Origin: Halococcus saccharolyticus DSM 5350
GTDB lineage: Archaea; Halobacteriota; Halobacteria; Halobacteriales; Halococcaceae
Assembly: GCF_000336915.1 (NCBI RefSeq)
Contig: NZ_AOMD01000018.1
Span: 130,180-194,179 of the forward strand
DNA length: 64,000 nucleotides
Direction of reading: 5' to 3'
Position numbers and translations under genes: made by a program. A model generated the notes under the pieces. It had not been told where the DNA came from. It saw only the letters and a list, made by a program, of their open reading frames with translations, and searched no databases. Each line of letters starts with the position of its first letter. Position 1 is the stretch's first letter. This document shows positions 14,333 through 47,518 of this stretch, piece by piece.

Positions 14333-14353
14333 CGTCAGAGCTTCGCTCTGACG
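14333..14353. repeat. Perfect hairpin, 9-bp stem and 3-nt loop (TTC)
   Basis: CGTCAGAGC is followed by TTC and its exact reverse complement GCTCTGACG. The geometry matches hairpins at 31620, 42809, 42836, 47126 and 47424. Confidence 0.85.
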
Positions 14354-31414: not shown

Positions 31415-31696
31415 GGTGGTTGCGGCTGCGGTGCGGTCGCGGTGCGTGCCTGGTGGATCGATGGCGAGGGTGCGAACGAAGTGAGCACCCGAGGGCTCGG
31501 GCGGTGCGGTTGCGGAGAGGATCAGTAGTCGTACCGCAAACGATCGCAAGGAGTGAGCGGGTGTTTTTGATCCACATTTTTGCGAGGGGTTGAGCGCGCC
31601 GGAGGCGCGCGATGTCGTTCGAGACGGCTTCGCCGTCTCGTGATGACGAAAAATCGCGTAGCGATTTCGAACCACCCCGAAGTAAAAAGGTGGTTC
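31415..31696. repeat. Intergenic repeat copy A, between trmJ and the PAC2-family gene
   Basis: One of five related repeats, written here in its + orientation. It starts with a GC-rich half (GGTGCGGTCGCGGT-like, then TGCCTGGTGGATCGATGGCGAG), has a middle GAGCGGGTGTTTTTGATCCA at about 31556-31575, and ends in GAAGTAAAAAGGTGG followed by the TAG of the PAC2 gene read on the other strand. A 24-nt stretch at 31541-31564 recurs exactly in copy B. Hairpins at 31594-31610, 31620-31640 and 31651-31667 are all perfect with 3-nt loops. The T-tracts suggest a terminator role. Confidence 0.75.
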
Positions 31697-42634: not shown

Positions 42635-43663
42635 GTGGAGTACACGACACTCGGCGATACGGGGATGACCGTGAGCAAGATCTGCCTCGGCTGTATGAGC
42701 TTCGGCGGCTCCGGCGGCGGCGAGATGTTCGACTGGACCGTCGACGAGGAGCAAGCCACCGAGGTCATCGATCGTGCGATCGAACTCGGGATCAACTTCT
42801 TCGACATCATCAGAACGCGAAGCGTTCTGATTAGCTGTCAGACGTAGTCTGACAACACCGCGAACGTCTACTCCGACGGGGAATCCGAGCGCATCCTCGG
42901 CAACGCCCTCGGAGAGTACGACCGTGACGAACAAGTGGTCGCCACGAAGGTCTGGGGCCAGATGCGCGACGACGACCCGAACTCGGGTGGTCTCTCGCGG
43001 AAGACGATCGATCAAGAGCTAGAGAACAGCCTTGATAGATTGGGAATGGACACAGTAGACCTCTATCAGATTCATCGCTGGGATCCCGAGACGCCGATCG
43101 AGAGGACTCTCGAAGCGCTCGACGACGCCGTTCGGCGGGGAAAGACTCGATATTTGGGCGCGAGTTCGATGTGGGCCCACCAGTTCGCCGAGGCGCTGCA
43201 CACGAGCGATCGGTTGGGACTCGATCGGTTCGTGACGATGCAGAATCACTACAACCTCGTTTATCGCGAGGAAGAGCGAGAGATGCTGCCACTCTCTCGA
43301 ACGGAGAACGTCGGCGTCATCCCGTGGTCGCCGTTCGCGGGTGGCTATCTCGCCCGCCCCCACGAGGAGGCCGACGAGATGCGCGAGATGACTGCGGATC
43401 GATACGACACCCTACAGAGCAGAGAAATCAACGAGCGCGTCCAGGAGATCGCCGACGAGAAGGGTGCCAGCATGAGCCAGATCGGGCTGGCGTGGTTGCT
43501 CCACAAAGACGGCGTGACCGCACCGATCTACGGCACGTCGAGCGTCGAGCACTTAGAGGACGCGGTCGAGGCGGTCGAGGCGGTCGAGCTCGATCTCTCG
43601 GATAGCGACATCGAGTACCTCGAAGAGCCGTACGAGCCGATGGCCGTTCTCGGCCACGAGTAG
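42635..43663 (+). pseudogene. Aldo/keto reductase interrupted in frame by a 51-bp hairpin insertion
   Basis: An intact reading frame for a 325-residue aldo/keto reductase except for 51 extra bases at 42806-42856. Before the insert the protein is EYTTLGDTGMTVSKICLGCM up to ELGINFFD; after it, TANVYSDGESERILGNALGEYDRDEQVVATKVWGQMR (given in part), the normal family sequence with catalytic Tyr and Lys regions. Removing the 51 bases joins FFD directly to TANVYSDG. The insert keeps frame but brings a TAG at 42845-42847. The GTG at 42635 is the start. Downstream coding looks healthy, so the event is recent or the allele is a sequencing/assembly artefact. Confidence 0.85.
42806..42856. repeat. 51-bp insertion of two perfect hairpins inside the aldo/keto reductase gene
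   Basis: The first hairpin (42809-42831) has 10-bp arms starting ATCAGAACGC around a GAA loop. The second (42836-42854) has 8-bp arms starting TGTCAGAC around a GTA loop. The stop TAG straddles the loop-stem boundary of the second. Flanking GAC|ACC codons join cleanly if it is removed. The two stems are unrelated in sequence but share the geometry of the other hairpins in the window. Confidence 0.9.
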
Positions 43664-47040: not shown

Positions 47041-47518
47041 GACTTTGTGGCGGTTGCGGGACGGCGGCGGTGGCGGTGCGGTAGCGGTTCCTGGCGTCCT
47101 GCGGTCGCGGAGCGACCGCAGGGCTCAGGAGAGCGTCGCTCTCCTGGCGGATGACGGGCGAGGACGCGAGCGTCGGGCGGCGCTTACTACGTTCACGCCG
47201 CCAAGCGAACGAGGAGCGAAGCGACCCGTGAGTTGTGAGCGAGCGCCTGAGGGCTTTGGCGGCGCTGTGCGGTCCTGGTGGATCGAGGGCGAGGCCCGCT
47301 CTGCGGGCCGAGGGCTCGGGCGGTGCTGTGCGGTTGTGGGGGTAACTAGTGGTTGTACCGCGAGCGAACGAAGTGAGCGAGCGGGTGTTTTTGATCCACA
47401 TTTTCGCGAGGGGTTGAGCGCCGCGAGGCGGCGGAGCCGCCTCGGCCCGTGCGAGCGGGCGAAGCCCGCGAGCAGACGACCGAAGGGAGCGCGAACCCCC
47501 GAAGTAAAAAGGTGGGTC
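47041..47518. repeat. Intergenic repeat copy D with internal duplication, before dnaJ's stop
   Basis: The longest copy. The GC-rich half occurs twice: first at about 47144-47273 (CTGGCGGATGACGGGCGAG ... GAGGGCTTTGGCGGCGCTG) and again at about 47274-47339 (CTGGTGGATCGAGGGCGAG ... GAGGGCTCGGGCGGTGCTG). The middle GAGCGGGTGTTTTTGATCCA, identical to copy A, lies near 47379-47398. It ends CCGAAGTAAAAAGGTGGGTC beside the TAG of dnaJ. Perfect hairpins with 3-nt loops lie at 47098-47122, 47126-47146, 47293-47309, 47424-47444 and 47455-47469. Confidence 0.8.

Follow-up and report, generated by a model that had tools for sequence, protein, structure and literature searches.

The DNA analysed here, a window of 64,000 nt from Halococcus saccharolyticus DSM 5350 (NZ_AOMD01000018.1, assembly GCF_000336915.1; genome label G000, contig C18), carries an aldo/keto reductase (AKR) gene in which the codons for FFD and TANVYSDG are split by 51 extra bases. 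The features of the locus are as follows.

42635..43663, + strand: AKR gene with a GTG start, interrupted; a TAG truncates the product at codon 71
42806..42856, + strand: 51-bp insert in the limits of the sequence-only reading, placement ambiguous by -2 to +1; absent from six orthologs
42805..42806, + strand: left flanking dinucleotide CA; 115 of 125 distinct units have the same CR dinucleotide on both sides
42807..42855, + strand: core of the mobile unit, TC..AA, 49 nt; assigned to a two-hairpin family by a held-out covariance model
42809..42831, + strand: hairpin 1, an inverted repeat, ATCAGAACGC (GAA) GCGTTCTGAT
42831..42835, + strand: linker TTAGC, in which the A covaries with that of the CA on either side
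42836..42854, + strand: hairpin 2, TGTCAGAC (GTA) GTCTGACA; same stem and loop in other haloarchaea
42845..42847, + strand: in-frame TAG, arising from the GTA loop and the G that closes it
42856..42857, + strand: right flanking dinucleotide CA, from comparison with empty sites and other units

The sequence-only reading had described an insert of two perfect hairpins with 3-nt loops (10 and 8 bp) between FFD and TANVYSDG, an in-frame TAG and an otherwise intact gene, and the letters bear this description out. The arms of hairpin 1 (42809-42818 and 42822-42831) are 100% complementary over 10 bp around a GAA loop, those of hairpin 2 (42836-42843 and 42847-42854) are 100% complementary over 8 bp around a GTA loop, and the TAG at 42845-42847 stands in the translated frame, ending the product after 70 codons. 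With the insert set aside, the gene encodes a full Aldo_ket_red protein (PF00248, 5e-73). When the allele was compared in close relatives, as that reading had proposed, six AKR orthologs, 82-94% identical (94% in G002, 93% in G003; also G006, G008, G005 and G011), carried neither the insert nor a stop. The empty site reads TTCTTCGACACCGCG and the filled site TTCTTCGA-CA-[TCATCAG...GACAA]-CA-CCGCG, a net gain of 51 bp whose exact cut is ambiguous over four positions. We preferred the CA/CA placement (core 42807-42855) because it is consistent with all other insertions. The reading frame was probably kept by coincidence; other units mostly have 53 or 55 nt between their flanks.

To place the insert among its relatives, we used a two-hairpin covariance model trained on nine units that did not include the window insert (an earlier model, R1, folded one hairpin only and was discarded). 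The blind model scored the insert at 63.7 bits and E=3.8e-17 in the window, excluding chance, and it found the unit at at least six places at E<0.001 in the organism's own genome. A BLAST search with the insert matched 40 of 99 relatives, the loci being pairs of perfect hairpins with short linkers, and the covariance model matched 47 of 60 haloarchaeal genomes, with up to 83 rows per genome when both orientations are counted. A pattern scan of 84,980 genomes returned 114 stretches, and all 80 among the matches listed were haloarchaeal, as were all 38 plasmid records with a match, nearly all of which had no gene annotated under it. Phage records gave no match, and the sole Rfam match close to units was a tRNA. 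One unit of Halorubrum and its relatives forms part of a larger repeat with many copies per genome (..GCGGTGCTTACGT[unit]CCTGCG..GCCCCTTTGAGTCCCACC; L011, L017, L081, L090 and most of L272-L384), itself without an Rfam match. A published description of this two-hairpin haloarchaeal family was not found in the open-access literature; the family, widespread in haloarchaea, is apparently undescribed.

Hairpins of related appearance were also seen in other settings. The window holds further hairpins with C-NNN-G loops at 31620-31667, 47098-47146 and 14333-14353, two of them paired, with linkers TGATGA and GCT; these are probably related intergenic hairpin types. Long hairpin arrays whose linkers alternate between a CRTC type and a TTRGC type occur at L030, L014, L021 and L016, and one whole contig of 5044 bp (L204, G037:C36) carries one and the same unit at each end, which may reflect circularity of the molecule or a break of the assembly at repeats.

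Each unit of the family comprises two hairpins in about 50-60 bp, with a TC..RA length mostly of 53 or 55 nt (range 45-58). Loops are 3 nt long both in BLAST-found units and in covariance-model matches, and in the 125 distinct units that were parsed all 250 have a closing C-G pair in which the C is 5'; most are three purines or three pyrimidines, the two orientations being about equally frequent. The stems vary yet remain paired in 98.7% of cells, and both partners have changed in 15 of 20 pairs, a level of covariation that no shuffle reached. Because these units had been selected for pairing, a less biased test was run on 110 loci chosen by hairpin 1 and linker only: a perfect second hairpin followed in 89 of them, many coming from one Halorubrum repeat and not independent, compared with 22 of 4,560 random stretches (0.5%). 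Across the units compared, stem sequences are thus shown to be able to change freely so long as pairing holds. The left tag is CGTCA in 98 of the 110 loci and CATC in the window type, and linkers are TTRGC, TGTGC or TGGGCTG.

The flanking bases are linked both to each other and to the linker. The same dinucleotide stands on both sides of 115 of the 125 units, against a mean of 93 and a maximum of 104 in 10,000 shuffled pairings, a count inflated by shared ancestry of units. With units oriented by their linker, CG flanks accompany TTGGC in 75 cases and A in one, and CA flanks accompany G in none and TTAGC in 13, four of these read from the other strand as TG (Fisher p=1e-14, again with counts inflated by ancestry); about 27 CG-flanked units have other linkers, such as TGTGC. 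Part of this covariation could be due to two subfamilies. In one unit (L210) a CG-type hairpin 2 is combined with CA flanks and a TTAGC linker, which argues against ancestry as the sole cause. The covarying base is identical rather than complementary in flank and linker, so there is no obvious guide pairing of the IS608 type; perfect inverted hairpins, being alike on both strands, reveal no strand choice.

That a very small mobile palindrome had entered a coding gene, as first proposed, is borne out by empty sites in relatives, by clean insertions elsewhere and by the presence of the family in most haloarchaea. Ten filled/empty pairs were aligned (the window, L027, L073, L079, L082, L026, L019, L025, L035, and L110 versus L103); L033 and L085 were left out as too diverged, with ambiguous boundaries. 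Empty sites hold one CR (CG or CA; TG for L025), and the filled sites compared show no repeat beyond the 2-bp CR. The filled allele of the L073 pair needs one extra base, and L110 and L103 are different elements of one kind. As judged from these alignments, the unit is shown to insert at a single CR dinucleotide, which then stands on both sides. One unit occurs both inside a Halorubrum repeat and alone within a coding gene of G013. A candidate second insertion at the L033 site, in G117, turned out to be an unrelated indel.

Several units lie at gene ends. At L035 (G073) and L270 (G060) the unit occupies the 3' terminus of a conserved gene; the final residues, IEKLS, are encoded by the 5' arm of hairpin 1 and the stop codon comes from the loop, and at L035 the native gene end is repeated downstream of the unit. 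A gene with an acidic tail, similar in appearance to ribosomal protein L12/P1, has units close to its 3' end at L415 (G066:C7:193117) and L085 (G022:C4), apparently inserted at one and the same position, and at L415 a stem re-encodes an acidic tail DENDDK and a stop.

The AKR junction is occupied in three genera. In Halosimplex salinum YPL4 (L385, NZ_QWGG01000001.1) the same codon junction holds an identical 51-mer, although elsewhere this gene and that of the window differ widely; the insert is flanked by 21 and 9 bases that are identical between the two. A Halorubrum (L395, G363:C22:106604-106692) carries a variant with compensated stem changes and the same loops, linker and TAG. In a comparison of the window and L395 with their congeners, the flanks of L395 agree with those of other Halorubrum as far as the junction, and the window flanks match their own genus. 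Of 392 genomes, 370 have an AKR homolog; none among the matches listed (roughly 150) contains a stop, and in this set a pattern search found no further insertions at the site, four of seven pattern matches being chance matches and one (L415) lying in a different gene. The concern that the insert might be a conserved in-frame loop shared with relatives therefore holds to the extent that two other genera have the insert at this position, but the closest orthologs are empty, indicating recurrent insertion rather than an inherited loop. The sequences suggest either that the unit prefers this site or that it spread between AKR genes by recombination over short conserved flanks. The AKR unit thus looks like a non-autonomous mobile element able to enter one site repeatedly.

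The 51 bp probably represent one member of a family of non-autonomous two-hairpin mobile units of haloarchaea, recognised by shape and moved in trans. The unit would be recognised mainly through hairpins extruded on single-stranded DNA, together with linker and flank bases; an enzyme acting in trans would cut single strands beside the hairpins, as HUH enzymes do for IS200/IS605 elements and REPINs, lift or copy the unit and join it at a matching CR. In the AKR gene, the GTA loop would then spell TAG by chance and truncate the enzyme. We infer an HUH-type or other hairpin-reading mover from the design of the unit. A related reading, which we regard as doubtful, is that the linker-target base sets the site of a shape-recognised hairpin pair, and that one subfamily homes to the AKR junction across genera and is possibly skipped or read through there.

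The search for a mobiliser tied no enzyme to the units. Y1_Tnp (PF01797) had no match in the organism's own genome and the Y1 gene was absent from the high-copy genomes G058, G044, G035 and G017. The resolvase (serine recombinase) family and the IS110 family were likewise missing, each from several of the high-copy genomes (G058, G044 and G027 among others). G058, which is 99% complete and has 21 match rows, lacks Y1, resolvase and IS110 alike. Among neighbour genes only two TnpB groups recurred, with TnpB encoded at 19 of the 95 loci that have a unit; the reason is that units are frequently found inside or next to the left ends of IS200/IS605 elements. The units at L110, L111, L115 and L118 fall within near-terminal palindromes of such elements, the window copy being in the AKR gene instead; over all units, the enrichment in palindromes is modest and the preference for their loops weak. 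Together with L094 and L117, these four lie in or beside the IS200/IS605 left-end hairpin, about 110-210 bp upstream of tnpA.

These observations bear first on a minimal IS200/IS605 derivative, in which hairpin 1 would be the left end and hairpin 2 the right end, mobilised in trans by a resident Y1 TnpA as for a terminal-only PATE. Terminal hairpins, a duplication of at most 2 bp, a right end resembling the target, the position of units beside or inside IS200/IS605 left ends and the 52-bp terminal-only PATEs described in Haloquadratum (PMC3119063) all fit such an origin; we nevertheless judge it unlikely, given the genomes that lack a Y1 gene, the left-end hairpins of 30 Y1 loci, which differ in sequence from those of the unit, and the IS605-related palindromes of PATE termini, which the unit stems lack. 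A site-specific recombinase with a 2-bp overlap (a serine recombinase, IS607- or IS110-like) could instead recombine a circular unit with a target that shares its dinucleotide, in keeping with the 2-bp match on both sides, the target specificity and the recurrent use of one AKR site, but the absence of resolvase and of IS110 from several high-copy genomes makes this improbable. We likewise give little credence to an ordinary DDE-type MITE with a 2-bp target duplication (CG or CA) and short inverted ends of the form TC..GA: a matching CR at either side and one CR in empty sites speak for it, yet the linker base covaries with CR, as would not be expected of a random target duplication, the ends differ among units, and no autonomous element with these ends was found. 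Fold-back copying, by which palindromes would be templated on the spot during replication or repair rather than transposed, would account for stems that vary yet stay perfect, for loops in both orientations and for stems that double as last codons and stop at two gene ends (L035 and L415); we regard it as very unlikely in view of identical units in unrelated contexts and different genera and of conserved tags and linkers.

The window lineage shows 15 silent changes against only two replacements, placing the gene under selection for most of its history. With so few amino-acid changes the insertion is probably recent, and the low decay would mean either that or a gene that still works; an additional TGA in the Halosimplex copy favours loss of the AKR. 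A bulge-helix-bulge intron reading of the insert was unsupported on inspection by eye. It is most improbable that the insert is tolerated, with its TAG read through or its 51 nt skipped and the AKR still active: site, length and TAG are the same in three genera with compensated stems, the reading frame is otherwise intact in two of the three and the window lineage bears the mark of purifying selection, but the Halosimplex copy has its further TGA, the nearest orthologs lack the insert, most other units differ in length, no splice-type bulge pairing is evident by eye, and a recent insertion accounts for the low decay.

The two-hairpin unit has counterparts among known gene-less repeats, so the earlier statement that it is unlike any known insertion sequence needs qualifying: it resembles SMRs, REPINs and CGTC-REPs, which share parts of its design. 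SMR-A and SMR-B are likewise haloarchaeal and gene-less and reach up to tens of copies; they make no long target duplication and often lie inside near-terminal palindromes of IS605-type elements, features that the unit may share (PMC3119063); SMR-A repeats of Haloquadratum walsbyi target the ends of such elements, and their mobilisation has been called enigmatic (Dyall-Smith et al. 2011, PMC3119063). SMR-A is about 110 bp long, highly conserved within type and bounded by inverted terminal repeats, whereas the unit has about 50-60 bp, two separate hairpins and variable stems, a distinction from the SMRs (HqIRS42/43/55) drawn from their description; REPINs and CGTC-REPs each differ in a tested feature. 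RAYT-moved REPINs/BIMEs are also mobile doublets of two inverted palindromes with compensatory changes and short tags (PMC3116915), but the unit is archaeal, has no linked RAYT, and combines perfect 3-nt-loop hairpins with 2-bp flank repeats and highly variable stems. CGTC-REPs, reported in five bacterial phyla only (Di Nocera et al. 2013, PMC3733652), share CGTC (or CATC) at the hairpin foot and stems of 8-10 bp that often begin with A-T, as well as dimers, the lack of a known transposase and some copies in genes; their loops are 4-5 nt with a CCA tail, against 3 nt and TTRGC here. PATEs, including 52-bp terminal-only forms, resemble the unit in size, palindromes and haloarchaeal hosts (PMC3119063) but have palindromes matching IS605 ends, of which terminal-only forms keep one. 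Rickettsia palindromic elements similarly place palindromes in frame within genes but are about 100-150 bp long and leave the gene open, whereas the unit adds a stop (general knowledge and review PMC10969869).

These results add a haloarchaea-wide family to the puzzle of what moves gene-less repeats such as SMRs and CGTC-REPs, and provide handles for finding the enzyme: clean filled/empty pairs, a one-base linker-target code and a repeatedly used site in one gene. Conserved genes can be disrupted by units of less than 60 bp, which almost all of the plasmid records examined leave unannotated.
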